Shown here: positions 8,660 to 22,618 of the stretch, in pieces
Position numbering within the stretch: position 1 is the first letter of the stretch
Layout of the letters: every line of letters begins with the position of its first letter
NCBI GenBank assembly: GCA_021821365.1
Contig: JAKACN010000015.1
Location: forward strand, 1-38,966
Source: Pseudomonadota bacterium
GTDB taxonomy: Bacteria > Pseudomonadota > Gammaproteobacteria > Burkholderiales > Burkholderiaceae_D
Length of the DNA: 38,966 nucleotides
Direction of reading: 5' to 3'
Notes under the pieces: generated by a model
Seen by the model: only the letters and a program-made list of their open reading frames with translations
Database searches by the model: none
Told to the model about the DNA's origin: nothing
Program-made: the position numbers and the translations under genes

Positions 8660-8793
8660 CTGAACCTCAATGAAGCGGCATGGAAATCGAACGCACGAAG
8701 CCTGCCGGTGCGCGCGCGGAAGCGCGCCCGGAAAGACGCGCCAGGGCAGGTGTCAGCACACGTGCCCCGGCATGCGAAACAAATTGCGTTCTC

Positions 8794-11054: not shown

Positions 11055-11100
11055 TGGCGCGGCTGGCGGGGATCGAACCCACGACCCTTGGCTTCGGAGG
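11055..11100 (-). pseudogene. 3' fragment of the host tRNA-Arg(CCG) gene, cut by the element
   Basis: The minus strand carries the anticodon loop CTCCGAA, the 3' anticodon strand GCCAA, a complete T arm (GTGGG, loop TTCGATC, CCCGC), the 3' acceptor strand CAGCCGC, discriminator G and an encoded CCA. The 5' half is absent; the adjoining element sequence cannot form the acceptor stem. The missing part is at 21,511-21,550, and joining the two gives a canonical 76-nt cloverleaf with all stems paired. Confidence 0.9.
11091..11100. repeat. attL core (left direct repeat)
   Basis: GCTTCGGAGG occurs here and at 21,511-21,520 in the same orientation. It spans the tRNA anticodon loop on the opposite strand. 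To its left is host tRNA and to its right element sequence, so this is the left recombination junction. Confidence 0.88.
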
Positions 11101-11163
11101 TCAGTTCTACATAACCGGCTAACCCTTGCTGTTACTGGCTTCCGACAATTTCTACACATCATT

Positions 11164-11183
11164 TCCCACACTATTCCCACAAC
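11164..11183 (+). repeat. Left arm-type repeat (probable integrase or directionality-factor site)
   Basis: TCCCACACTATTCCCACAAC matches the sequence at 21,398-21,417 in 19 of 20 positions, in the same orientation. Each copy contains the heptamer TCCCACA twice, about one helical turn apart. It starts 64 bp inside the left core and overlaps the region upstream of the integrase gene, so binding could also regulate integrase expression. Confidence 0.65.
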
Positions 11184-11227
11184 GCGGGATAGAATCGTGG
11201 GAAACGATCAGGCACGGAGGTTCGGAA

Positions 11228-12358
11228 ATGGCGACAGTCAGGAAAAACAAGGTCGGCAATTGGGAAGCGATGATTCGGCGGAAGGGAATCCCTACCGTCA
11301 CGAGGACTTTCCCGACGAAGCGGGAAGCCGATGCATTCGCGGCAGACATGGAATCGAGGATTGCGAAAGGGAAATCCGTCGCGTCTCCCGATTCATACAC
11401 AGTCGGGCAGGCGCTCGAAGAGTACGCCGCATCCATCGCGGTTCCCGTGGAGGTCGACGGCGAAATCACGATGAAGGTCGACGGAAGGAAAGCCGCCTAC
11501 CTGAACGGCTTGCTTCCCCACTTCGGGGAATTCTCGATAGGATTCCTTCGTGCGAAGCACATCAAGAAATTCGTCGACCTGATGAAGACGACACCCATTC
11601 CTAGACCGCGTCATGCAAAGAAAGCGCACCCTCTCTATGCAGGAGGGCAGGAAAAGTTCTACGCCGTTTCTACCGTCAGAAAATTCGTCTATGCCCTGAA
11701 ATCCGCGCTCGACCATCACGCGCGGCAGCACGGGTATACATACGACCCCCACCTCTTCGCAGACGAGAAGCCGGCTGCGTGGGACAACATACGGGAGCGA
11801 CGACTTGAAGACGGCGAACAGGAAAGAATCATCGATGCCTGCCGCAACATCATCACTCGGGACGAGTCAGGCAATGTCGTCGGAAAACGAAACCGGAAGA
11901 ACGGCGACCTCTATGCGGAACTGGTCATATTCTTGCTGGAAACCGGCGCGCGACTTCAAGAGGCATTGCTTGCCGAATGGAACGAATTCGATATCGGAAA
12001 TCGGACATGGACGATTCCTAAACCTCATGTCAAAACAAAACAAGGACGAGAAGTTCCACTGTCGAAAATCGCTTTGGGCATATTGGAAACCCTGTCGGAA
12101 AAGACGGGCGGCAAGGTGCGACCTTTCGGTCATATTCCGAAGGGCAAGGCGATCTTCGTTACATGGAAACGAATCTGCAAGGACGCTCAAATCGACGACT
12201 TCGGTTTCCACGACTTGCGGCATGAATGCATCTGCCGTTGGGTTCTTCGCGGCGGTTCAGACCTTCAAATTTCGAAGGCGGCAGGACACGACATCTCCGT
12301 CATGCAGAAATACGCATCGCTTCGCGGGCGTGAACTTCTGACGTTCGTCGATGCTTGA
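11228..12358 (+). CDS. int: Tyrosine recombinase (site-specific integrase)
   Basis: 376-aa integrase that would insert and excise the element at the tRNA anticodon loop. The start is ATG 11228, with GGAGG nine bases upstream; translation begins MATVRKNKVGNWEAMIRRKG, an AP2-like arm-binding segment. A SAM-like core-binding domain follows (about 57-185). In the catalytic domain the conserved residues are present: R242 (ETGARLQEAL), lysine in the beta-hairpin (HVKTKQGREVPL), H328 and R331 (HDLRH), H354 (AAGHD) and nucleophile Y362. It is next to the left junction and reads inward. The 5' region overlaps the left arm-type repeat. It looks functional. Confidence 0.95.
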   Translation: MATVRKNKVGNWEAMIRRKGIPTVTRTFPTKREADAFAADMESRIAKGKSVASPDSYTVGQALEEYAASIAVPVEVDGEITMKVDGRKAAYLNGLLPHFGEFSIGFLRAKHIKKFVDLMKTTPIPRPRHAKKAHPLYAGGQEKFYAVSTVRKFVYALKSALDHHARQHGYTYDPHLFADEKPAAWDNIRERRLEDGEQERIIDACRNIITRDESGNVVGKRNRKNGDLYAELVIFLLETGARLQEALLAEWNEFDIGNRTWTIPKPHVKTKQGREVPLSKIALGILETLSEKTGGKVRPFGHIPKGKAIFVTWKRICKDAQIDDFGFHDLRHECICRWVLRGGSDLQISKAAGHDISVMQKYASLRGRELLTFVDA

Positions 12359-12592
12359 ACCAATGGCGGCAGGGATGTAACACGCCAGTTTCATTCGCTT
12401 CGCTCCCCCGTGTAATCGTCCATCTTGACGCGGATGGTGGACTCTGAAAAACAGCACCCATTCGTTTCACAGGTCGAGGACGGCGAGACCTGCACAACAC
12501 GACGAAAAGCGTTTTACAGAATCGATACCAATCGAGCAGCAGGACACACGGACGAAAGCGCAGCCTCGCTCACTCCCGTTCACTTCGGCTTT

Positions 12593-12650
12593 GCGAAACG
12601 CTTTCCCTTTTTCGGTGGCAAAACCAACGACATTAGGTAGAGCGTTTCGC
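12593..12650. repeat. 10-bp perfect inverted repeat, 38-nt spacer
   Basis: GCGAAACGCT at 12,593-12,602 and AGCGTTTCGC at 12,641-12,650 are exact reverse complements. A third related half-site, AAAGCGTTT, lies at 12,506-12,514. They may bind the RHH proteins encoded just downstream or form an oriT cruciform. Confidence 0.5.
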
Positions 12651-12705
12651 AGTCGGCTACGGCACCAAAGAAAAGACCTTTGGAAAACCGAACCCAGCGA
12701 AAAGC

Positions 12706-12721
12706 GGTCAGTTCTACATAA
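12706..12721 (+). repeat. Second copy of a 16-bp sequence from the element's left end
   Basis: GGTCAGTTCTACATAA is identical to 11,099-11,114, which begins in the last two bases of the attL core and runs into the element. The copies lie either side of the integrase gene, in the same orientation, 1,607 bp apart. Confidence 0.6.
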
Positions 12722-12956
12722 AAATCAGGACACCTCATGCGCTATCGCGCGACCGGCTCCGCCGAAGCCTTGTCCTGCCTAGATGTCGTGTAGTCAGAAA
12801 TCGAAAGTGTCTGCCACACAAACCCAGTAACCATGGGGCTTGCAGGAAGAAGTTCGTGTATTTGAATTCGGTTTTCAGAATCAGCCGTAGAACACTTGAT
12901 TTCCGTGCCTCGGTCCGATAGACGTATGTCATGAACATTTTTCATAGGAGAGGTTC

Positions 12957-13493
12957 GTGAGCAAATCGGCGAATGAAAAACTGACTATCGGAATCCGTGT
13001 CAGCAAAGAAGAGAAGGACTGCTTCGAGGGCTTGGCGAAAGCACGAGGATGCACGATTACCGACATCATGCGTTCGGCGGTGAAGCGGACTTACGATGAA
13101 ATTCAGAAGCCTGCTTCCGCCCCTGTCGTTCTGCAAAACGACGGACGCATTCTGTCGATGCTGGACGAAATTCTTGCGGCAGTGAAGGGCAAGGATGAGC
13201 AACCTAAAGCCGGAGCCACGGCTGACATTCTGGACATTGCAAGCAAGGCGCCGACATTTGCGGAAGAACCCGTTTCCGCGCAAGACGAAATGCCCGTTGT
13301 CGCCCTCGCGGAAGCGACAAGAGTTCCCGTTCTCGACAAGAACGGGCGCGTCAAACTCAAGCATTCCTCCATTCTCGACATTGGTGATTCGAACAGGCTG
13401 AGGGAAATGGGAGCGAAGAAAGACATGCTGGACGGGTTCTTCTATGTCCCTGCGGGACAGGACTCCGAACCGTTCAGGGAGTTCTTCGCATGA
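12957..13493 (+). CDS. Ribbon-helix-helix relaxosome accessory protein (TrwA/MobC-like position)
   Basis: 178-aa protein with a GTG start at 12,957, preceded by AGGAGAG. The N-terminus (about 8-50: KLTIGIRVSKEEKDCFEGLA, then TITDIMRSAVKRTYDEI) is a ribbon-helix-helix DNA-binding domain. The rest (about 60-178) is charged and unrecognised, with a conserved-looking end around SILDIGDSNRLREMGAKKDM. Its stop overlaps the next start by 4 nt (ATGA), placing it at the head of a tightly coupled operon with the relaxase. By analogy with TrwA of R388 it probably binds oriT, helps the relaxase and represses the operon. That role is inferred from position and fold. Confidence 0.75.
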   Translation: MSKSANEKLTIGIRVSKEEKDCFEGLAKARGCTITDIMRSAVKRTYDEIQKPASAPVVLQNDGRILSMLDEILAAVKGKDEQPKAGATADILDIASKAPTFAEEPVSAQDEMPVVALAEATRVPVLDKNGRVKLKHSSILDIGDSNRLREMGAKKDMLDGFFYVPAGQDSEPFREFFA

Positions 13494-13705
13494 CACCGCG
13501 CTCGGTCAGAATCCCTGAATTTCTCGACGCCCAAGTCATCGCCTTGGCTAAAAGACGGGGGCAGACGATTTCGGGTTTCCTGCTCACGGCGATCGAGAAC
13601 GCGGTCGTAGAAGAGGTCTCGATGGCGCGGATGGACCGTCAGATTCGCGAAGCGATTCGAGCGGAATTCGCTGCCGAGAAAGGCAGGTCCGCAGGAGTCC
13701 GCTGA
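13490..13705 (+). CDS. Small ribbon-helix-helix protein
   Basis: 71-aa protein of Arc/CopG type: PRSVRIPEFLDAQVIALAKR forms the beta strand and first helix, and QTISGFLLTAIENAVVEE the second helix. The C-terminal 20 residues are charged. Its start overlaps the preceding stop (ATGA) and its own stop overlaps the relaxase start by one base (TGATG), so all three genes are translationally coupled. A second relaxosome DNA-binding protein or operon repressor is the likely role (inference). Confidence 0.75.
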   Translation: MTPRSVRIPEFLDAQVIALAKRRGQTISGFLLTAIENAVVEEVSMARMDRQIREAIRAEFAAEKGRSAGVR

Positions 13706-16700
13706 TGCTGTCAGTCAAGCGAATCATGGACGGCGGATACATCGAAGACTCCGTCAAGCGGACAGAGGAATACGTCTCGGAAGGAAAGGAACCGCCGGGA
13801 GAATTCTTCGGAAAAGGCGCAGCCGCCCTTGGTCTTTCCGGCAAACTCCAGAAAGGAGAATTGTCCGACCTCCTGAAGGGACTCCACCCGAAGACGGGGG
13901 AGCAGATATTCGAGGTCGACGACTCTTCAGTCATTGGTTTCGACAAGACCTTCAGCGCAAGCAAGTCAGTATCAATTCTCGCAGCCGTCGCGGACAAGAA
14001 AACCAGAGACGAAATCCATCTGGCGTTCCGCCAGTCCGTCGACGCCGCCATGGCGAAGTTCGAAGATGAGACGAGAGTCAGACTCGGGCGGGGCGATTGG
14101 CAGCCCTGCCAAGGCATCATCGCCGTCGGCTATGAGCATATGGACTCGCGTGAACTCGACCCCCAACTGCACGAACATTACTACCTCGTAGCGCGCGGGA
14201 TGAACGCCGACGGCAAGTTCGTCGGCATGGATACTCGCGACCCCTACGTCATGCAGAAGAACCTAGGAGCGATGTTCCGTGCCGAGTTCTCGGGGCGATT
14301 GCGGGAGATGGGATTCGTCATCGAGCCGGGAGTCTCGGACACCTTCGAGATTGCGGGCGTGCCCGAAGGACTGAAGGAACTCTTCTCGCAACGTTCGACG
14401 CAAATCGCGGACTTCATCGAAAGGCGTGTCGACGGCTTCAAGGGCAAGGAAGTCGGCAAATTGATGGCGCAGGGCATGGAACGTGATGCGGCGGAAGCGC
14501 AGACCGCCGCCGACGTGGAAGCGTTCAGGAAAGGTCTATTGAAGTCGCCGAAGGCGCGTCAGGCAGCAGCCTACGCCACGAGGAAGGCGAAAGACGTTTC
14601 GGAGCATGGAGAGAGCCGCGAAGCCCAGATGAAGCGCTGGCAGGACACGGCGAAGGAGGAGTTCGGATTCGGGGCAGCCGCCGTCAGGGACTTGAAGAAG
14701 ATGACGCCGCCCGAAACCGAGCCGTTCGACATGCAAGCCGTTCTCGAAAGGGCGCTGGCAGGAAATTCGGTCTTTAAGATGCGAGACCTCGAGACCGCTC
14801 TTCTCGTCGAAAAGCAGTTCCACCCCGAAATCGATGTCAAAGAGACGATGCGGGAGATGATGGACAGGAATGCGAAGACGCCTCTTCTTTTCCTCAAAGA
14901 CAAGCACGGAGAGCATTGGCTTACTTCCGCCGACCTGCGAAGGAAAGAGGAGGTTCTCGTCGCAAGGGCAGAGAATTCCGTGCGTCAGGGCACTTCCCAT
15001 GCCGTCCCGAAGGAAATCGCCGACAGGGTCATCGCCGAGGAAGAGGCAAGGATGCGCGCCGAATACGGCAGCAAATTCAAGGACGCGGCGTGGCAAGACC
15101 AGCAGGCGGCGATCCGGAAGGTTCTCGAAAGCGGGAACATTGCCCTTACCGTCGGACGTGCAGGCACAGGCAAGACGACGACCTTTTCTGTCGCCCGTAA
15201 AGTCTACGAGGCGGCGGGCTACAACCTCAAGGGGACGAGCCAAGGAACCATCGCAGCCGAAGGTCTGGGCAGGGAAGCGGGCATCGAGTCCATGAACGTC
15301 GCGCAATGGAAAGCCCAATGGGCGAAAGGGAAGAGCGGAGGCATCGACGACAGGACGATTTTCGTCGTCGACGAAGCGGCGCTGGTCGGCACGGACGACA
15401 TGCGTGAAATCATCACCACAGTCGGCATGTATGGCGGCAAGGTGGTTCTTCTGGGAGATCATGGGCAACTCCAGAACATCTCGTCAGGGCAGATCTTCGA
15501 ACGTATCGCCGACAAACTGGGCGACACCGTGGCGACCCTGAACAACGTAACGAGACAGAAGGACGCCGATTTTCGTGATGCCGTATCGGGACTGCGGGAG
15601 GGCGATGCCGAAGCCGCCGTCGAATACCTCGACGCAAAGGGATGGATTACGGCAACGAAGGACAGGGAAGCCGCAATGGCGGCGATGGTCAAGGATTGGA
15701 CTGAAGACCCTGCCGACATCACGAAGAAACTGATGATGGCGGGCAAGAACGAAGACGCACATGCAATAAATCAGGCTGCTCACGACGCATTGAGGGAAGC
15801 AGGGAAAATCGGAGAGGAACATTTCGTCTCGACGAAAATCGGCGAGAACGAATCCCGCATCACGACACTTTCCGTCGGCGACCGCATCCTGTTCCGCAAG
15901 AACGACAAGGAAATCGGCGTCAAGAACGGCAACTTCGGACGCGTTACGGGCATCGACATGAAGCGCGACGGCAGCCATTCTCTGACCGTCATGCTCGCCG
16001 ACGACAAGGGCAAGGACACGAAGGAAGTCCGATTCAGCACCGAGGACTATCGTGCTTTCCAGCATGGATACTGCGTAACGACGTTCAGTAGCCAAGGGAA
16101 GACGGTTGAAGCGGCATATTCCTTCGTCGACAGGACGATGACCAGTCGGGAATCCGCTTACGTCCAAGTCTCGCGCGCGACCGACCGAGGAAGACTCTAC
16201 ATGACGGAGGACGAGCGTAAGGACATCGTCAATCTCCTTTCCCGCTCGAACCGCAAGGAAACGACCTTGGCGTATGACCTGCTCGACGGCGGGGAACTGT
16301 ATCGTGATGAAGCCGTCGCCCACTACGGCGAACCAAAGACCGTTCGGGAAGCCGTATCGCGGAAGGACGCGAACGCTATCCGCAGACTCGCGGAAGAAGG
16401 CGCAGACCTCGAAGGACGCGAAGGTCGGGCGCAGAATACGGCGCTGCACCTTGCAGTCAGGGACGGCAACACCGAAGCCGTGAAGGCTCTTCTCGAATGC
16501 GGGGCGTCGTGCGACCCGAGGAACGCGATGGGCATCACTCCCTTGCACGACGCCGCCAAGGCAGGGAATCGCGACATAGCCGAATTGCTGCTTGCGGCAG
16601 GGGCAGACCCCTTGGCAGTCGCTAGGAACGGCGATACGCCCTTCCTGCTTGCCCGTAGGGGTGCCTCTCCTGTTTCCGAACTACTTTCCGCTGCAATCAC

Positions 16701-17847
16701 CGACAGTCATGAACGAGTCCACCCACTGCCGTTGAATGAACCTCTGGACTCGCCCCGCGATGTCCCGAAGGCGTCGCACGACGCCGACAACGTACACACG
16801 GAACCTGACCCCGGCTCTAGAGCCGGTATCCGACCTGTCCACGATGTTGCAGGAACCTCCGAAACCGACCTGACCGGCGCACCGACGCCCGAAGCCGAGC
16901 CGCAGGCGACGGCGACAACGATTCGCACAGAACCTGTCATTTCTTCCGGTAGCGAACTTGCCTCCGTTCCGGTAGCGCCCACGGAACCGAAGAAGGTGGA
17001 CATCGAGACACAGATTCAGAGGACGCTCGCCAGATGCAAGACGAAAGGTATTGATGAGATAGCGTTCAAGATGCTGAAGGGTCTCGCCGTCGACTCCAAG
17101 GGCAAGGAACGGAAGAACGGCGCGATTGAGAAGGTATTCCTCGAAGCAAGGAGGGACGGGAATCATCTTCTCGCCAATGCCGTGCGCGGCTTCTGTCATG
17201 GAAGCGTCAAGCCCTACGGATACCAAAGGACGTTGCAGGAAGAAATCGATGCCGACAGGAAGAAACAACACGAGCAGGAACGCATTGAAGCCGTCAGAGC
17301 GACGGGAAAGAGCCTTGTAGGTCATCTGATGTCGGCAGGCGGGGCGCTCTTCGACATTACGAAAAGCGGCATCGCCTCCGCCAAGGAAGCATGGAACGAG
17401 GCTCATGCTCCCGCACCCGTCATCGACGACGTGGACAAGTTCGTGAAGGATTTCGCCGTCTACTGCAACGACCCCATGACAAGCGACGAGGACTACATCG
17501 GCTGCATCGAGAAGGCAAAGAACCACAATGAGCGGAGTCCCGACGACAAGGTCTTGGACAGGATGCTCGTCGCAAGCGAGAAGATCAGGGATGAAGAAAA
17601 CTCGATAAGACTACGAGAAGCAGGAGCAGACCCCGACAACAGGAATACCCCCGAGGGGAATGGGCAATCGGCTAACGACATCGCCGAGGCTGCAAGACTC
17701 GAAGAGGCACGGCGCCAGCAGGAAGCACGGGCGATGAAGGAAGAACAGGAACGGCACAACAAGGAACGCGAAGCCGCAATGACCGCAAGAAAGGAACGTC
17801 AGCGCGGCATGTCTCCGAGTCCCAAGGGCAAGGACATGGAGCGGTGA
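13705..17847 (+). CDS. MobF-family relaxase-helicase with ankyrin repeats
   Basis: 1,380-aa TrwC/TraI-like conjugative relaxase: nicks oriT, stays bound to the strand and unwinds it. The relaxase domain (about 1-300) has GKGAAALGLSGK, FDKTFSASKSVS, and metal-binding histidines H145, H156 and H158 (DPQLHEH) spaced as in TrwC. Candidate nucleophile tyrosines are Y12 and Y23; the usual paired YY is not seen. The RecD-like helicase part has Walker A GRAGTGKTT (484-492), Walker B VVDEAA (554-559) and a late TTFSSQGKTVEAAYSFVDR with VSRATDRGRLYM. After the helicase, residues about 881-995 form three to four ankyrin repeats (ALHLAVRDGNTEAVKALL; PLHDAAKAGNRDIAELLLAA), unlike TrwC or TraI. A Pro/Ala-rich linker, an unrecognised helical domain and a charged coiled-coil tail follow. 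Confidence 0.92.
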   Translation: MLSVKRIMDGGYIEDSVKRTEEYVSEGKEPPGEFFGKGAAALGLSGKLQKGELSDLLKGLHPKTGEQIFEVDDSSVIGFDKTFSASKSVSILAAVADKKTRDEIHLAFRQSVDAAMAKFEDETRVRLGRGDWQPCQGIIAVGYEHMDSRELDPQLHEHYYLVARGMNADGKFVGMDTRDPYVMQKNLGAMFRAEFSGRLREMGFVIEPGVSDTFEIAGVPEGLKELFSQRSTQIADFIERRVDGFKGKEVGKLMAQGMERDAAEAQTAADVEAFRKGLLKSPKARQAAAYATRKAKDVSEHGESREAQMKRWQDTAKEEFGFGAAAVRDLKKMTPPETEPFDMQAVLERALAGNSVFKMRDLETALLVEKQFHPEIDVKETMREMMDRNAKTPLLFLKDKHGEHWLTSADLRRKEEVLVARAENSVRQGTSHAVPKEIADRVIAEEEARMRAEYGSKFKDAAWQDQQAAIRKVLESGNIALTVGRAGTGKTTTFSVARKVYEAAGYNLKGTSQGTIAAEGLGREAGIESMNVAQWKAQWAKGKSGGIDDRTIFVVDEAALVGTDDMREIITTVGMYGGKVVLLGDHGQLQNISSGQIFERIADKLGDTVATLNNVTRQKDADFRDAVSGLREGDAEAAVEYLDAKGWITATKDREAAMAAMVKDWTEDPADITKKLMMAGKNEDAHAINQAAHDALREAGKIGEEHFVSTKIGENESRITTLSVGDRILFRKNDKEIGVKNGNFGRVTGIDMKRDGSHSLTVMLADDKGKDTKEVRFSTEDYRAFQHGYCVTTFSSQGKTVEAAYSFVDRTMTSRESAYVQVSRATDRGRLYMTEDERKDIVNLLSRSNRKETTLAYDLLDGGELYRDEAVAHYGEPKTVREAVSRKDANAIRRLAEEGADLEGREGRAQNTALHLAVRDGNTEAVKALLECGASCDPRNAMGITPLHDAAKAGNRDIAELLLAAGADPLAVARNGDTPFLLARRGASPVSELLSAAITDSHERVHPLPLNEPLDSPRDVPKASHDADNVHTEPDPGSRAGIRPVHDVAGTSETDLTGAPTPEAEPQATATTIRTEPVISSGSELASVPVAPTEPKKVDIETQIQRTLARCKTKGIDEIAFKMLKGLAVDSKGKERKNGAIEKVFLEARRDGNHLLANAVRGFCHGSVKPYGYQRTLQEEIDADRKKQHEQERIEAVRATGKSLVGHLMSAGGALFDITKSGIASAKEAWNEAHAPAPVIDDVDKFVKDFAVYCNDPMTSDEDYIGCIEKAKNHNERSPDDKVLDRMLVASEKIRDEENSIRLREAGADPDNRNTPEGNGQSANDIAEAARLEEARRQQEARAMKEEQERHNKEREAAMTARKERQRGMSPSPKGKDMER

Positions 17848-17993
17848 TTGTTGCGTTTACCACCGACAGAACGGCTCCATTTCGCAGGATTCCGCCTCCA
17901 CTCGGTGAAGCCATGATTCACCTCGCCCGCACGGGCTGTCCGTGGAAAACAAATATTCCGATTGGTCGTTGACTTAAGAAGGAGGTCCGATAG

Positions 17994-18009
17994 GTTGGGT
18001 ATACGCAAC
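17994..18009. promoter_or_regulatory. 16-bp palindrome before the third RHH gene
   Basis: GTTGGGTATACGCAAC is palindromic except for one symmetric pair (14/16). It ends 17 bp before the start codon and overlaps a possible -10 (TATACG). This position suits an autoregulatory operator for the RHH protein downstream. Confidence 0.5.
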
Positions 18010-18026
18010 CATCAAGGAGAACTGCC

Positions 18027-18434
18027 ATGGCAATGCCGAGCCACATGACTTTCAGAATCGACCGAGAAATACAGAAGTCATTCGTTCATCTCTGCGAGCA
18101 GAGAGGCACGACCGCTTCTATTGTTATCAGAGAATTCATTGACCAGCAGTTGAATTCGACGGATGCGTTCTCCCGTTGGTTAGATGCAGGAAACGCGATG
18201 AAGCAACGTCATTCGGACGAGAAACAAAGGCTCATCGCCGAAGGGGAAGCTCTAGACGTGAGGCACAAAACAGAAAAAAGAAAAGCAGAAGCATTGGACA
18301 CCGTTCAGCAGATAGAAGTCGACATGCGGCACAGCAAGGAACGGCGTGAACTGGATACGAAAATCGAAGCAGTTCTGGAACGGCAGGACGGCGAAAAATT
18401 CGCCCACAAGCACCAGAAGGCTTTGGCAGCATAA
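18027..18434 (+). CDS. RHH-type DNA-binding protein with charged coiled-coil tail
   Basis: 135-aa protein. The start at 18,027 has AAGGAG ten bases upstream. Residues about 5-45 (HMTFRIDREIQKSFVHLCEQ, then TASIVIREFIDQQL) fit a ribbon-helix-helix domain. Residues about 55-130 are almost entirely Glu/Lys/Arg/Gln-rich and should form a long helix or coiled coil. It is separated from the relaxase gene by 179 bp with its own palindrome, so it is likely a separate unit. It could be a copy-number or transfer regulator or a partition-type accessory protein; nothing visible decides between these. Confidence 0.7.
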   Translation: MAMPSHMTFRIDREIQKSFVHLCEQRGTTASIVIREFIDQQLNSTDAFSRWLDAGNAMKQRHSDEKQRLIAEGEALDVRHKTEKRKAEALDTVQQIEVDMRHSKERRELDTKIEAVLERQDGEKFAHKHQKALAA

Positions 18435-18440
18435 AGATTT

Positions 18441-18469
18441 GCCCCCAACTGCTTGCAACAGTTGAGGGC
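18441..18469 (+). terminator. Hairpin after the RHH gene (no U tract)
   Basis: GCCCCCAACTG, a 7-nt loop and CAGTTGAGGGC form an 11-bp stem with one mismatch, starting 7 bp after the stop codon. There is no T run after it, so it may be a weak terminator or mRNA 3' protection. Confidence 0.45.
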
Positions 18470-18580
18470 GGATATGGCGAGACGAGCCACGAACGAACTA
18501 TCTACCTTCATCATATCGCGACCCGTCTCCAAATCAATCGTTGCCGTGAATCATTCTGATGAACGGCGAAGGAGATGGGC

Positions 18581-19579
18581 ATGAAGGAAAGGTTTTTCCG
18601 CTATACGCAGAGGGAACAGGACTTGATTGATGAGGTAAGGCACCTCATCGATAGCCGGGTGTACTCTCACTTGAAGAAAAAGGCGGATTTCGAAAGCGGT
18701 TGTCTGGAGCATCCTTCGGCACTCCGTCTGACCACAGGCACGATAGCCAGCGCGATTTCGCTACCTGCGAAGGAACGGATTGCGGCTCTTACTTTCACTC
18801 ACAACGACGTAAGGCACTCCCTGAAACGGCTGGAAGCGCTCGGTCTTGTTGATCAACTCGAACAAAACGGACGTTATCTGCGGCTGCGGTTGCCGATGGC
18901 TGCGATGTCTACAAGCGAAAGAAGCCAAGGTCAAAACCAGATTGTGCGAAGCGATGCGAAAAACAGGGGGCAGATTGTGCGGCAGATTGTGCGAAGTGAA
19001 TCCTCGGAAACCGTTGCGACACAAGGGTTAGCAGAGGACGGGGCGGGGCAGACTGTGCGGCAGATTGTCCGAAGCGATGCTGAAAATGGGGGGCAGATTG
19101 TGCGAAGTGAAAACGGCGAATCCTCGGAAACCATTGCAGCGCAAGGGTTTGCAGGCAGCAACGTCGTCCCGCTCAAGATTGAAAAACAATCAATAATAAA
19201 CTCACCCCCCTACCCCCCAGAGGGGGGAGAGGAAAACCTTTTGCCTTCGGCATCTGAAAAACCAACCCCACTCGCCGCCGATGGCGGCTCACAGGAAGAA
19301 TCGGAAAAGACCAAGCCCGAAATCAGGCGCCTGCGAAAACTTGTCGCCGATGCCGCGAAGAAAAGCGGTGGTTTCATCCAGTGCCTGAACTCGGAGCGCT
19401 CGACGGCAATCTTGGCGGGATGGGCAACGACGAAGTTCAAGGATATGGATATCGAAGACGCTTGCGGACGAGTCATCGCGAACCCTGACATGAAGCCCTT
19501 CGTCGATAGCATCGACACCTTGATGAGGCAGCAGGCAGAAAAACTCGCCAAATTCAGGCGCGCTTATTGTGCGGGATGA
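18581..19579 (+). CDS. Winged-helix replication-initiator-like protein (lambda-O-like architecture)
   Basis: 332-aa protein. The start is ATG 18,581: GGAG at 18,571 is correctly spaced for it, whereas the in-frame ATG at 18,575 abuts that site. The N-terminal 115 residues (KERFFRYTQREQDLIDEVRH, then TGTIASAISLP, FTHNDVRHSLKRLEALGLVD) look like a winged helix. The middle (about 120-215) is low-complexity because the DNA carries six iteron-like repeats there, encoding QIVRS again and again. An A+T-rich stretch follows. The C-terminal 90 residues (from KPEIRRLRKLVADAAKK) are helical and could contact a helicase or loader. Initiators whose gene contains the origin are known from lambda O. The function is inferred from this layout, not from a recognised family. 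Confidence 0.6.
   Translation: MKERFFRYTQREQDLIDEVRHLIDSRVYSHLKKKADFESGCLEHPSALRLTTGTIASAISLPAKERIAALTFTHNDVRHSLKRLEALGLVDQLEQNGRYLRLRLPMAAMSTSERSQGQNQIVRSDAKNRGQIVRQIVRSESSETVATQGLAEDGAGQTVRQIVRSDAENGGQIVRSENGESSETIAAQGFAGSNVVPLKIEKQSIINSPPYPPEGGEENLLPSASEKPTPLAADGGSQEESEKTKPEIRRLRKLVADAAKKSGGFIQCLNSERSTAILAGWATTKFKDMDIEDACGRVIANPDMKPFVDSIDTLMRQQAEKLAKFRRAYCAG
18938..19107 (+). repeat. Six iteron-like direct repeats inside the initiator-like gene (candidate origin)
   Basis: CAGATTGTGCG occurs, with at most one mismatch, at 18,938, 18,971, 18,983, 19,049, 19,061 and 19,094. Four copies extend to CAGATTGTGCGAAG or a one-base variant. The start-to-start spacings are 33, 12, 66, 12 and 33 bp, a mirror-symmetric pattern. 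The whole array is coding. It is followed about 70 bp later by an A+T-rich segment, as in the lambda origin. Confidence 0.7.
19177..19227. other. A+T-rich segment with two hairpins next to the iterons
   Basis: GATTG-AAAAA-CAATC (19,177-19,191) is a perfect hairpin at the start of the only strongly A+T-rich stretch in the area (to about 19,202). Directly after it, CCCCCC-AGA-GGGGGG (19,213-19,227) forms a very stable G/C hairpin. Both lie inside the coding sequence. A duplex-unwinding region plus a priming hairpin is one reading. Confidence 0.45.
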
Positions 19580-19663
19580 GGCGTCAGCGTCCTTGCGGAA
19601 TTTTCGGGTTTTCACTGCCGACAAGACGCAACGGCGGAAGCCGTGTCGTCGCCGTCGCTCCTG

Positions 19664-19927
19664 TCAGAGCAGGTGATGCCCGAGGTCTGCGATCTCTTCT
19701 CGGTAAGAACCAATGAATGTTTCCGTATCAATTCCGAGTGCGTCAGCAAGCCGGATGAATTCGGGAAAATCCAGTCTGCGTTCCCCTCGCTCAATCTTCG
19801 ATACGAAACTCTGCGGTTTTTCCAGCCTTTCCGCCACTTCGACTTGCGTCAGCCCAGATTCCTGCCGTGCTTTGACCAGCAGGCGGCGGAACACTTCATA
19901 CTGCGGACTGTGAAGGGGATTCGGCAT
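19664..19927 (-). CDS. Xre/Cro-type HTH repressor
   Basis: 87-aa DNA-binding protein. I place the start at ATG 19,927 because the operator-like palindrome lies immediately upstream; an in-frame ATG further up would put the palindrome inside the gene, and neither start has a strong ribosome site. Residues about 9-65 are a clear HTH_3 domain: VFRRLLVKARQESGLTQVEV, then EKPQSFVSKIERGERRLD and ALGIDTETFIG. It is divergent from the hemerythrin-like gene. It is a likely master repressor of the element or of the cargo, and probably regulates itself. Confidence 0.88.
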   Translation of the reverse strand: MPNPLHSPQYEVFRRLLVKARQESGLTQVEVAERLEKPQSFVSKIERGERRLDFPEFIRLADALGIDTETFIGSYREEIADLGHHLL

Positions 19928-19940
19928 CCCCAAGAGGCTA

Positions 19941-19974
19941 ATAACCCGACTTGGAATATCCCAGACCGGGTTAT
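19941..19974. promoter_or_regulatory. 34-bp extended palindrome upstream of the Xre-type gene
   Basis: Outer arms ATAACCCG and CGGGTTAT are perfect inverted repeats 18 bp apart. The inner segment TGGAATATCCCA is also nearly symmetric; overall 26 of 34 positions are symmetric. It starts 14 bp before the HTH start, in the divergent region shared with the hemerythrin-like gene. A repressor operator is the natural reading. Confidence 0.6.
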
Positions 19975-20036
19975 CAGGTATCATTAGTCCGAAAACACCG
20001 GCAATCGTTCTTTCCCAAGGGTCTCTCCTAGGGGGA

Positions 20037-20063
20037 TTGAGTCTGATAGCCTTACCGTATACA
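20037..20063 (+). promoter_or_regulatory. Possible sigma-70 promoter of the hemerythrin-like gene
   Basis: TTGAGT (20,037-20,042), a short 15-bp spacer and TATACA (20,058-20,063) lie about 30 bp before the hemerythrin start. The boxes are good but the spacing is below optimum, which may imply weak or activated expression. Confidence 0.35.
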
Positions 20064-20094
20064 AGAGCGATATCGACCACGAAAGACAAGAAAA

Positions 20095-20502
20095 ATGCCT
20101 GCCCCACAGGAATGGAGTCCGGCTTGCAGTGTCGGACATCCGATTTTGGATGAACAACACAGGAGACTGCTCGCCGTCTGCAAGGGGCTTTCCTTGTGCG
20201 GAGAACTGCGAGGTTCGGAGCGTATTTCGCGATTTCATGAACTGCTGGATGAAGTCGCAAAATTCGCCCGTGAACACTTCGATACCGAGGAAGGCATTCT
20301 TGCCGAAGCCCGCTATCCCGACTTGGATGCACAGAAAAGGGAGCATTTGGAATTTCAGGAACGGTTCACTGAAATCCTGTGCGATGCCAGCAATGGAACC
20401 ATAGACATCCCCGAGACCTGCAAATTCGTTTCGGATTGGTGGCAGAGCCATATCCTGACCTCAGACATGCAATACAAGGAAGTCTTGACCCGACGTTCCT
20501 AG
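20095..20502 (+). CDS. Bacteriohemerythrin-like metal-binding protein (element cargo)
   Basis: 135-aa protein with the four-helix hemerythrin pattern: H22 (LDEQHRRLL), H61 and E65 (HFDTEE), H84 (KREHLEF), H119 and D124 (HILTSDMQYKEV). These correspond to the di-iron ligands of bacteriohemerythrins, which bind O2. One expected ligand, the first histidine of the HxxxH pair, is replaced by Q80 (DAQKREH), so the iron site may be altered. The ribosome site is weak. It is not attached to a receptor or regulator, so oxygen buffering, NO handling or sensing are all possible. It is the only cargo-type gene of the element, with the small gene just downstream. Confidence 0.85.
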   Translation: MPAPQEWSPACSVGHPILDEQHRRLLAVCKGLSLCGELRGSERISRFHELLDEVAKFAREHFDTEEGILAEARYPDLDAQKREHLEFQERFTEILCDASNGTIDIPETCKFVSDWWQSHILTSDMQYKEVLTRRS

Positions 20503-20529
20503 CGATGTCCGACAAGAAGAACAGAAGAC

Positions 20530-20766
20530 ATGATTCACGAACTTCACGAAATCACGACCGAGAACGACGGCATCAGGGCTTGGGCATTCTTCGTCGTGCT
20601 CAAAGGCACTGACCCATTGCCGAACCACAAGCCATTTACCTCGGGGTCTTGGACTCCGGGAGTCGACGATGCAGAAGGTCAAGTCCTGTATGAAGAGGGG
20701 CGAAGGGAAGCCATGTTCGAAGTCGAAAGGCTCAACCGCAACGGCAGGATATTTCCGAGACGATAG
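20530..20766 (+). CDS. Small hypothetical protein after the hemerythrin-like gene
   Basis: 78-aa predicted protein, 27 bp after the hemerythrin-like stop and in the same direction, with AGAAG upstream of ATG 20,530. No signal peptide or membrane segment. The sequence (WAFFVVLKGTDPLPNHKPFT, later EGRREAMFEVERLNRNGRIF) has the balanced composition of a real small soluble domain, but I do not recognise a family. Probably cotranscribed with the hemerythrin-like gene. Confidence 0.6.
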   Translation: MIHELHEITTENDGIRAWAFFVVLKGTDPLPNHKPFTSGSWTPGVDDAEGQVLYEEGRREAMFEVERLNRNGRIFPRR

Positions 20767-20767
20767 C

Positions 20768-20790
20768 GACAGGGCAATTGCTGCCCTGTC
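20768..20790. terminator. Convergent-gene hairpin
   Basis: GACAGGGCA, a 5-nt loop and TGCCCTGTC form a perfect 9-bp stem between two converging genes, touching the stop of the minus-strand gene. There is no clear T run on either side. Confidence 0.45.
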
Positions 20791-21199
20791 AGAGCGATTT
20801 TTCGTCCTTGGGTAAGGGGTCTGCCCTTCCCCGAAGGGAAATCGTCTCCAAAGCGTCCGCAAGGGCGCTGGCGAACTCCGCTTGAATTCTGGCTTGGGCT
20901 ATCACCGATGCGAAGGACTCCCGACCCATTCTAGGCTTCAAAATGAAACCGGAAGGTTTCGGCGTCGGCTTCCCTCGTCCGTGGGACTGACCCGCATTCA
21001 TCAGGTATTCAGCCATTTCCCCGACGGTGCAGCCGAGGCGACCGCCCCGCTTGCGGGCTGGCGGAAAATTCCCTCGCTCGATGATGGAGCGGACTGCTTT
21101 GGGAGACTTCGAGAGAATTACCGCGATATCATCGACGAGCAGAAAATCCCGATTCGGGAAGCGACTGCGGATATCGGCGACGTATGCGGAGAAGTCCAT
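20789..21199 (-). CDS. AlpA/excisionase-like HTH protein (candidate directionality factor)
   Basis: 136-aa protein. Residues about 18-65 (FLLVDDIAVILSKSPKAVRS, then IIERGNFPPARKRGGRLGCT and VGEMAEYLM) fit a small winged MerR/AlpA-like fold used by excisionases. The C-terminal half is unrecognised, with a helical end. It lies at the right end of the element, near the junction and arm repeat, where recombination directionality factors are common. The predicted start is only 18 bp after the encoded CCA of the element's tRNA-Arg on the same strand and has no Shine-Dalgarno; the upstream bases are instead CCTCCT. It may be cotranscribed with, and processed from, the tRNA. Confidence 0.7.
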   Translation of the reverse strand: MDFSAYVADIRSRFPNRDFLLVDDIAVILSKSPKAVRSIIERGNFPPARKRGGRLGCTVGEMAEYLMNAGQSHGRGKPTPKPSGFILKPRMGRESFASVIAQARIQAEFASALADALETISLRGRADPLPKDEKSL

Positions 21200-21217
21200 T
21201 CAGGAGGGGGAAATCGG

Positions 21218-21292
21218 TGGCGCGCCCGCCTGGAATCGAACCAGGAATCCGACCTTCGGAGAGTCGTGTGATATCCATTTCACTACGGACGC
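21218..21292 (-). tRNA. tRNA-Arg(CCG) encoded by the element
   Basis: A complete 75-nt cloverleaf on the minus strand: acceptor GCGTCCG/CGGGCGC (one G-T pair), D stem GTGA/TCAC with loop AATGGATA, anticodon stem CGACT/GGTCG (one wobble), loop CTCCGAA giving anticodon CCG (reads CGG), 4-nt variable loop, T arm CCTGG/CCAGG with TTCGATT, discriminator G and encoded CCA. The known ArgRS determinants A20, C35 and G73 are present. It is the same isoacceptor as the host gene split by the element but differs in the acceptor, D, anticodon and T stems, so it is not a fragment of the host copy. Its own promoter lies upstream. Confidence 0.93.
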
Positions 21293-21306
21293 ATTTCGAA
21301 CCTGCA

Positions 21307-21336
21307 AGGATACCGCGAAACTCCTTGTATCGGCAA
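21307..21336 (-). promoter_or_regulatory. Promoter of the element's tRNA-Arg
   Basis: On the minus strand TTGCCG (21,331-21,336), an 18-bp spacer and TATCCT (21,307-21,312) would start transcription about 8 bp before the mature tRNA 5' end, a normal distance for tRNA genes. Each box matches the consensus in four of six positions. Confidence 0.5.
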
Positions 21337-21397
21337 ATCAACCTTGAAAGATGCCGCTCGGAAGCCCGTCGCTCATGACGTCGGAATCCTTGAACGG

Positions 21398-21417
21398 TCC
21401 CACACTTTTCCCACAAC
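21398..21417 (+). repeat. Right arm-type repeat
   Basis: TCCCACACTTTTCCCACAAC, 19/20 identical and in the same orientation as 11,164-11,183. It ends 93 bp inside the right core. In the excised circle the two copies would flank the core as P and P' arms. Confidence 0.65.
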
Positions 21418-21510
21418 CGGATGGGGAATTGCAGGAAATCGCGAGGTATGGCCAGCAGTTAAGTCGTTGATTTTGCTTGAAGTTTCAGCGCGAAAATATA
21501 TGATGCACTC

Positions 21511-21520
21511 GCTTCGGAGG
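21511..21520. repeat. attR core (right direct repeat)
   Basis: GCTTCGGAGG, identical to 11,091-11,100. To the right the host tRNA 5' half continues; to the left is element sequence with no T arm or acceptor strand. Confidence 0.88.
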
Positions 21521-21550
21521 CCAATACTCTATCCACTGAGCTACAGCCGC
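21511..21550 (-). pseudogene. 5' fragment of the host tRNA-Arg(CCG) gene
   Basis: The minus strand reads 5' acceptor GCGGCTG (21,544-21,550), TA, D stem GCTC/GAGT with loop AGTGGATA, anticodon strand TTGGC and loop CTCCGAA, and then changes to element sequence. The acceptor and anticodon strands pair perfectly with the 3' fragment at 11,055-11,100. Confidence 0.9.
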
Positions 21551-21654: not shown

Positions 21655-21760
21655 CAAGGGTTTTGCGAGGTATTGCACTGCAGCATCCGCAGGTTTCTCA
21701 TGCGCCGTGCCCTGACCCGCAAGCTTGCCCACCGGTTTCGAAAATTGCATTGAGGGAATA

Positions 21761-22618
21761 ATGAGCGACGCACACAACGAACACCAATCCGCCATCAGGA
21801 CACCCAAGCAGCTCATCGCTGCCGTGATCGCAGGTTTCCTGGTACCCATCATCTGCATCGTGCTGCTGGTGCAGTACGTGACCAACAGCAACAAGGTCGG
21901 CGCCGGTTCGGGCGGCCAGTCGCCGGAAGCGATTGCGGAGCGCCTGCGCCCGGTCGCGGATGAGGGCTTCGTCCTGAAGGACACCAGCGCCCCGAAACAG
22001 CTGCAAAGCGGTGAAATGGTATTCAAGGCAGTGTGCTCGGCCTGCCACGCCACCGGCGCTGCCGGCGCGCCGAAGGCCGGCGATGCCGGCGCATGGTCGG
22101 CCCGCCTCGCACAAGGCGAGGCAACGCTGTTCGACCACGCACTCAAGGGAATCCGCGCGATGCCGGCCAAGGGCGGCAACCCTGACCTGGATGATGTGGA
22201 AGTCGAGCGCGCCGTGGTCTACATGGCCAACCAGTCCGGCGGCAAGCTGAAGGAACCGGAAGTGAAGGCTGCCGCTCCCGCTGCGGCACCGGCAGCCTCT
22301 GCAGCGGCGCCTGCCGCAGCACCCGCGGCAGCGGCCCCGGCCGAACAGCCGAAGGCGGCAGCAGCCGGCGATGCGGGCAAGAAGCTGTATGAAGCGACCT
22401 GCCAGGCTTGCCACGGCACGGGCGTCGCAGGCGCGCCGAAGTTCGGCGACAAGGCCGCATGGGCGCCGCGCATCAAGCAAGGCTCGGCCACGCTGCACGA
22501 CCACGCGTTGAAGGGCTTCCAGGGCAAGTCCGGCATGATGCCTCCGAAGGGCGGCTCGACCGCGCCGGACGACGACGTCAAGGCAGCCGTCGATTACATG
22601 GTTTCCGCTGCCAAGTAA
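21761..22618 (+). CDS. Membrane-anchored di-haem c5-type cytochrome
   Basis: 285-aa electron carrier, anchored in the inner membrane and facing the periplasm. The start is ATG 21,761 with GAGGGA upstream. An uncleaved membrane helix spans about 18-40 (LIAAVIAGFLVPIICIVLLV). Two cytochrome c domains follow with haem sites CSACH (92-96) and CQACH (214-218). Each has the likely axial methionine in AMPAKGG or MMPPKGG. The two domains are clearly duplicates, joined by an Ala/Pro-rich linker at about 165-205. It stands alone, followed by a strong terminator. It probably passes electrons to a terminal oxidase or from the bc1 complex. Confidence 0.93.
   Translation: MSDAHNEHQSAIRTPKQLIAAVIAGFLVPIICIVLLVQYVTNSNKVGAGSGGQSPEAIAERLRPVADEGFVLKDTSAPKQLQSGEMVFKAVCSACHATGAAGAPKAGDAGAWSARLAQGEATLFDHALKGIRAMPAKGGNPDLDDVEVERAVVYMANQSGGKLKEPEVKAAAPAAAPAASAAAPAAAPAAAAPAEQPKAAAAGDAGKKLYEATCQACHGTGVAGAPKFGDKAAWAPRIKQGSATLHDHALKGFQGKSGMMPPKGGSTAPDDDVKAAVDYMVSAAK

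Follow-up and report, generated by a model that had tools for sequence, protein, structure and literature searches.

A predicted mobilizable island splits a host tRNA-Arg(CCG) gene and carries a complete tRNA-Arg(CCG), a probable island counterpart of tRNA-dependent lysogeny

Introduction

Integration of a mobile element into a tRNA gene that is not rebuilt, with the loss made good by a tRNA carried on the element, has been described as tRNA-dependent lysogeny in actinobacteriophages (Fionnbharth, Gaia, and others) by Guerrero-Bustamante and Hatfull in 2024, with the need for the carried tRNA proven genetically (PMC10865867); the accessible text of that report also proposes a wider occurrence and cites the Lactobacillus prophage Lj965. 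In Sinorhizobium meliloti, the prophages of two strains split tRNA-Leu(UAG) and carry a similar tRNA, as reported in the accessible part of PMC11476347, and a search for tRNA-dependent lysogeny in other prophages found none, according to the available portion of PMC12429752. A case involving a mobilizable island was not found in the literature searched, which lies mostly outside subscription journals. Here we analyze a candidate in a stretch of 38,966 nucleotides of bacterial DNA (contig JAKACN010000015.1), hereafter the window.

Results

A host tRNA-Arg(CCG) gene split in the anticodon loop

A 10,420-bp island occupies about 11,092-21,511 of the window and interrupts, within the anticodon loop, the host tRNA-Arg(CCG) gene, whose 3' half stands at the left junction (attL; 11055-11100, minus strand) and whose 5' half stands at the right junction (attR; 21511-21550, minus strand), the two sharing a 10-bp core, GCTTCGGAGG (11091-11100 and 21511-21520). 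The original prediction, that the gene is cut in its anticodon loop and that the halves fit together, was confirmed when they were joined in silico, yielding a single perfect 76-nt tRNA-Arg(CCG). Its further statement that neither junction rebuilds a tRNA also held, the shared core being only 10 bp and ARAGORN finding no tRNA at the left or the right junction; nor did it find one at the circular junction of the island. Over the whole window, the same program reports the 75-nt tRNA-Arg(CCG) of the island and one distant tRNA-Asp, and nothing else. The locus thus has a tyrosine integrase with its attB inside a host tRNA gene, and a short (10-bp) core with the tRNA rebuilt at neither junction, and the classical tDNA-island layout, with an intact tDNA at one end and a fragment at the other, is absent from the window.

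The comparison with element-free relatives that had been proposed for this locus revealed the intact gene in all 14 same-genus relatives, the rejoined host gene matching over 76-77 nt with 100% identity in 12 of them, 99% in one, and 96% in one. Since, in addition, the DNA running rightward from the 5' half aligns continuously into the intact tRNA genes of the relatives, the split target is not a chance resemblance. On the right side, a host cytochrome c gene (21725-22618, plus strand) marks the native site: it lies beside tRNA-Arg(CCG) in 29 of 30 relatives' loci, with a weak or partial match in some (the exception is L055, and two loci from other families are weak), so that by this comparison the right flank is the native site of tRNA-Arg(CCG). 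About 19 kb of left flank, compared with eight relatives, shows no synteny beyond one short patch shared with three relatives and a weak match of one protein in two, and we therefore regard the 3' side as a variable region. The GC content of the island, about 0.51-0.61 per kb, is below that of its surroundings (0.59-0.68).

A non-syntenic left flank in a genome assembled as 419 contigs could also be taken as a sign that two contigs were misjoined at the short common core. However, the two ends of the island are flanked by complementary halves of a single gene, integrase and tRNA follow in the expected order, and the same architecture is found in a genome consisting of a single contig (G539, below), and an assembly artefact is accordingly considered highly improbable.

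A displaced 3' half of this tRNA-Arg(CCG) gene lies about 8-45 kb from an intact copy in G002, G013, and G003 (L171, L172, and L173), in G005 (L174), and in G028 (L175/L176), which suggests a hot spot that may also serve ordinary rebuilding islands. An island of that kind, with a functional tRNA regenerated at one junction and the additional tRNA of no consequence, might be supposed in the window as well, given the intact gene kept together with a displaced 3' half in G002, G013, and G003 and the typical restoration of the target by tDNA islands described in the accessible text of PMC4383910. The window sequence itself contradicts this explanation, with only 10 bp shared and no tRNA at either junction, and leaves it with hardly any probability.

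The carried tRNA and the tRNA set of the host genome

The island carries a complete 75-nt tRNA-Arg(CCG) with encoded CCA (21218-21292, minus strand). Both ARAGORN and Rfam find it, the latter at 21221-21292 on the minus strand with 57.1 bits against a gathering score of 29, in agreement with the earlier claim of a whole tRNA-Arg with the same CCG anticodon and a different sequence; its identity to the host tRNA-Arg(CCG) is 65%. It had been placed about 220 bp from the right end, and the gap between it and the right core with the host 5' half indeed measures 219 bp. The promoter of its own that had been ascribed to it was not borne out: no sigma-70 site matching 9 of 12 positions lies directly upstream, and the sole minus-strand match in the scan (21524-21495) straddles the right junction. 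Carried tRNA and host gene have the same orientation, so that transcription from the promoter of the host tRNA could extend into the carried tRNA.

In the host genome (G000), a 5.27-Mb draft with 40 Rfam tRNA matches, the arginine tRNAs among these matches are TCT, ACG (two copies), CCT, and the CCG of the island. The search for a second intact tRNA-Arg(CCG), which had been named as a refuting condition, found none among the 40 matches, in a draft from which some tRNA genes are absent, as tRNA-Ile and tRNA-Cys were not found either; tRNA-Arg(TCG) is likewise missing from the 40 matches. Decoding of CGG requires tRNA-Arg(CCG) where the other arginine tRNAs are only ACG, TCT, and CCT. A loose pattern search for CCG tRNAs, run on 36 relatives, gave mostly chance matches and is excluded from the evidence.

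The lack of a convincing promoter would fit a carried tRNA that is silent or non-functional, with another tRNA reading CGG. Against this stand the perfect cloverleaf with its encoded CCA, the failure to find a tRNA-Arg(TCG) among the 40 matches, and the near identity of a carried tRNA-Arg(CCT) in three hosts of related islands, suggesting constraint or recent spread; we consider a silent tRNA very unlikely.

Gene content and type of the island

From the left, the 3' half with the core is followed by the integrase, a relaxase, ORFs without a Pfam name, and ORFs with HTH and hemerythrin matches; the right part consists of a gene for a small protein of HTH type, the carried tRNA, the 219-bp gap, and the core with the host 5' half. 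The tyrosine integrase (410 aa; 11126-12358, plus strand; PF00589) contains R276, K303, H362, R365, H388, and Y396, which are invariant across seven aligned integrases and which we take to be its catalytic residues; no solved structure matches it at E 0.001. The predicted mobilization gene (13705-17847, plus strand) encodes a 1380-aa MobF/TrwC-type relaxase-helicase with C-terminal ankyrin repeats, matching PF08751 at 8e-58 and the NCBIfam MobF model with 179 bits against a cut-off of 100. The ankyrin repeats lie at about aa 883-980, a fusion that seems unusual, and are matched by ankyrin 'T4SS effector' models far below the cut-offs of these models.

Further to the right, an ORF with an HTH_3 domain in its C-terminal third (19664-20332, minus strand; real start unsure) encodes a probable regulator, and a hemerythrin-like ORF (20095-20502, plus strand) overlaps it on the opposite strand. 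The small protein (20789-21199, minus strand), a probable excisionase or regulator by a sub-cut-off HTH_17 match, adjoins the carried tRNA, as do its relatives in the islands L086 and L087. In a PHROGs scan of ten ORFs of the island, no virion gene was found, the matches being to integrase, a repressor-like protein, and helicase-type proteins, with the rest unnamed; no secretion-apparatus family that would indicate a mating-pair apparatus was found among the island ORFs scanned. With an integrase and a relaxase, and without its own mating-pair apparatus among these ORFs, the island is classified from its gene content as an integrative mobilizable element.

Recurrence in related islands

Relatives of the integrase are few: within the family, 3 of 294 genomes gave a match at E 1e-30, and at E 1e-25 there were matches in 5 of 399 genomes of the order and in 2 of 369 of the class, the host genome being included in each count. 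In viral contigs, six stretches matched a pattern and none was confirmed as a relative, and searches of plasmids and of phages gave no relative at E 1e-20. A scan of genome contigs with an alignment of seven integrases, of which the best 80 of 542 matches were taken, led to a tree of 83 of 85 integrases (L146 and L154 left out; midpoint root for drawing only). The window integrase falls within a group of 14 with SH-aLRT 100, the inner order of which is poorly resolved, with long branches flagged.

The full pattern of split target and carried tRNA is found in five of the 14: the window, L086 (Hydrogenophilaceae), L087 (Gallionella), L091, and L085 (in G539). In the latter four, a tRNA-Arg is split in the anticodon loop, its 3' half lies beside the integrase, a complete tRNA-Arg(CCT) lies at the far end, and neither junction yields a tRNA with ARAGORN. 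The combination of a split tRNA-Arg and a carried tRNA-Arg(CCT) in four related islands argues for design rather than coincidence. The five split cases correspond to about four lineages, as L085, L091, and a further island, L186, are close kin. On the island side of the right junction, AAGCGA is present in the window, L087, L085, and L091, and AAGGGA in L086; this motif is likely a site of the integrase. Relative to the integrase, the carried tRNA of L085, L091, and L186 is oriented oppositely to that of the window, L086, and L087.

The rejoined target and the carried tRNA have the same anticodon in four of the five split cases. In the fifth, L086, the halves read CAT, and yet the gene is 84% like the carried tRNA-Arg(CCT). 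The L086 halves (about 1940-1990 and 8730-8775) thus rejoin to a gene that reads as Met, a drift that may have occurred before or after insertion. The carried tRNAs of L085, L091, and L186 are identical at 74-75 of 75 positions, whereas L085 and L091 have broken targets that agree at only 55 of 76, which shows that the carried tRNA belongs to the island rather than to the host and travels with it.

Mobile elements frequently carry tRNAs, and the carried gene could be translational cargo suited to the codon usage of the island, with the split target a separate accident. The matches to it in phage records (15, the best at 81.5%) and in plasmid records (one, at 79.7%) are only distant tRNAs; CGG makes up 9 of the 32 arginine codons in the integrase gene and 16 of the 105 in the relaxase gene. 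What renders this explanation improbable is the agreement of carried and broken anticodons in four of five cases, extending over two isoacceptors, with the L086 target Arg(CCT)-like outside its anticodon; in addition, the hosts would, as far as seen, be left without the isoacceptor.

In the single contig of G539, with 96 Rfam tRNAs, 87 of them typed, the only tRNA-Arg(CCT) is that of the island, and the nine untyped ones are of Leu/Ser gene size (82-90 nt). In G1045, G1046, and G1047, an anticodon-pattern search with ARAGORN run on the matches found no second intact CCT gene. As tRNA-Arg(CCT) is often dispensable, tRNA-Arg(TCT) being able to read AGG, a need for the carried tRNA is clear only for CCG. 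The island L186 (G265:C56:74500-94330) carries a tRNA-Arg(CCT) with its ends outside any recognizable tRNA, and G265 retains a second intact tRNA-Arg(CCT); it was left out of the split-case counts. By eye, L186 appears to have inserted at a secondary site outside tRNA genes, where the core is nearly matched, one end lying near a transposase-like sequence.

Cargo varies among these islands: a MobA/MobL relaxase and a type III restriction-modification system in L087, NikA/MobC-like matches below cut-offs and a cytosine methylase in L091, a plasmid-type replicase match in L186, a DNA methylase in L085/L188, and in L086 three of four scanned ORFs without a name. No relaxase was found among the scanned ORFs of L086, L186, and L188, and predicted mobilization genes are thus present in the window and L087 and weakly indicated in L091. 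Pfam detected no virion family among 20 ORFs of the sister islands; the PHROGs scan covered the window island only.

Elsewhere in the group of 14, the integrase end of L094 (Aromatoleum) contains an intact tRNA-Ser(GCT), and L083 shows the 3' half of a tRNA that looks Ser-like by eye, no whole tRNA having been found in its 20 kb or in the 40 kb beyond. No tRNA half was found at the integrase end of L090, L149, and L078; L088 and L089 run into contig ends, and L096 lies on a 3-kb contig. Target-keeping and target-replacing members thus seem to coexist among related integrases.

Discussion

The split gene, the 10-bp core, the carried tRNA with the same anticodon, and the recurrence of this arrangement can be read directly from the sequences, in which no second copy of the isoacceptor was found, and they support the reading that the island destroys a host tRNA gene and supplies one of the same anticodon. 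It is very probable that we are dealing with an integrative mobilizable island that integrates in a tRNA-dependent manner, splitting tRNA-Arg(CCG) and supplying a whole replacement. In the proposed mechanism, recombination by the integrase would join the island, at its 10-bp core, to the anticodon loop of the host gene and thereby split that gene; instead of a tRNA fragment for rebuilding, the island would bring a whole tRNA-Arg(CCG) near its far end, beside the gene for the small HTH-type protein. Once the island is integrated, the carried tRNA, if expressed and charged, would take over CGG decoding. Its loss without precise excision would then harm or kill the cell, insofar as CGG decoding is needed for viability, and this dependence may tie the cell to the island and stabilize the latter. 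If the island model is true, the arrangement would resemble an addiction system without a toxin, in which a cell depends on an island to read a codon, and extends the phage trick to an island with a mobilization gene. Islands of this layout would evade finders that seek an intact tDNA plus one fragment.

The same model would offer a route for the horizontal replacement of tRNA genes. We put forward, tentatively and with rather more doubt than confidence, that a dispersed group of mobilizable islands may remove and supply an arginine tRNA, so becoming difficult to lose, and then decay, leaving their tRNA as a resident gene, so that the tRNAs of a locus are swapped over time. Relatives within the family have dissimilar tRNA-Arg(CCG) genes at the locus beside cytochrome c. 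In G031 (L183:7028-7275), the 5' half of the usual gene, matching at 93% over 41 nt, lies 170 bp from cytochrome c and is followed by a dissimilar whole tRNA-Arg(CCG); in G016 (L184:15660-15921, and L185), a dissimilar whole tRNA-Arg(CCG) is followed by the usual 3' half. No island was seen at either locus, and the ORFs scanned around them are ordinary chromosomal genes. G022 has a gene 96% identical to that of G031 at the same locus, and G024 has another type; short blastn found no native remnants in their 3.9-kb loci. Given these types without remnants, and given that G016 has a further 3' half of the native gene on a different contig (C152), we do not regard G016 and G031 as proven island scars; their arrangement may also have arisen by ordinary divergence or by an older or other gene replacement.

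The features of the window island are worth comparing with those of the described systems, as given in the accessible texts of the sources cited. Classical tDNA islands, as collected in Islander (PMC4383910), likewise use a tyrosine integrase and have a tRNA fragment at one end, and in about half of those listed the crossover is centered on the anticodon; however, they restore the target by means of the fragment, whereas the window island leaves two fragments and a foreign whole gene. The Sinorhizobium prophages (PMC11476347) split their target centrally, do not rebuild it, and carry a cognate tRNA, as the island does, but they are prophages rather than mobilizable islands, and their target is tRNA-Leu. 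Lj965 (via PMC10865867) also leaves its target without rebuilding and carries a cognate tRNA, and is again a prophage and not a mobilizable island. Closest is the actinophage system (PMC10865867), which shares with the island a tyrosine integrase, an attB overlapping a tRNA gene, the absence of a rebuilt tRNA, and carriage of a tRNA of the same isotype, with cores of 8, 10, and 14 bp against 10 bp in the island, and in which, as in the island group, related integrases occur with and without tRNA carriage. It differs in that its carriers are temperate actinobacterial phages, the tRNAs concerned are those for Lys, Leu, and Ile2, and the need is proven by genetics, whereas the islands described here, at least one of them with a relaxase and none with a virion gene found, occur in Betaproteobacteria and their kin and involve Arg tRNAs that are presumably needed. 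Because its carrier shows no phage genes, the present system would work like tRNA-dependent lysogeny without being a member of it. The principle has already been published for phages, and what appears to be new here is the carrier, an island in which no virion gene was found and which is equipped with a relaxase.
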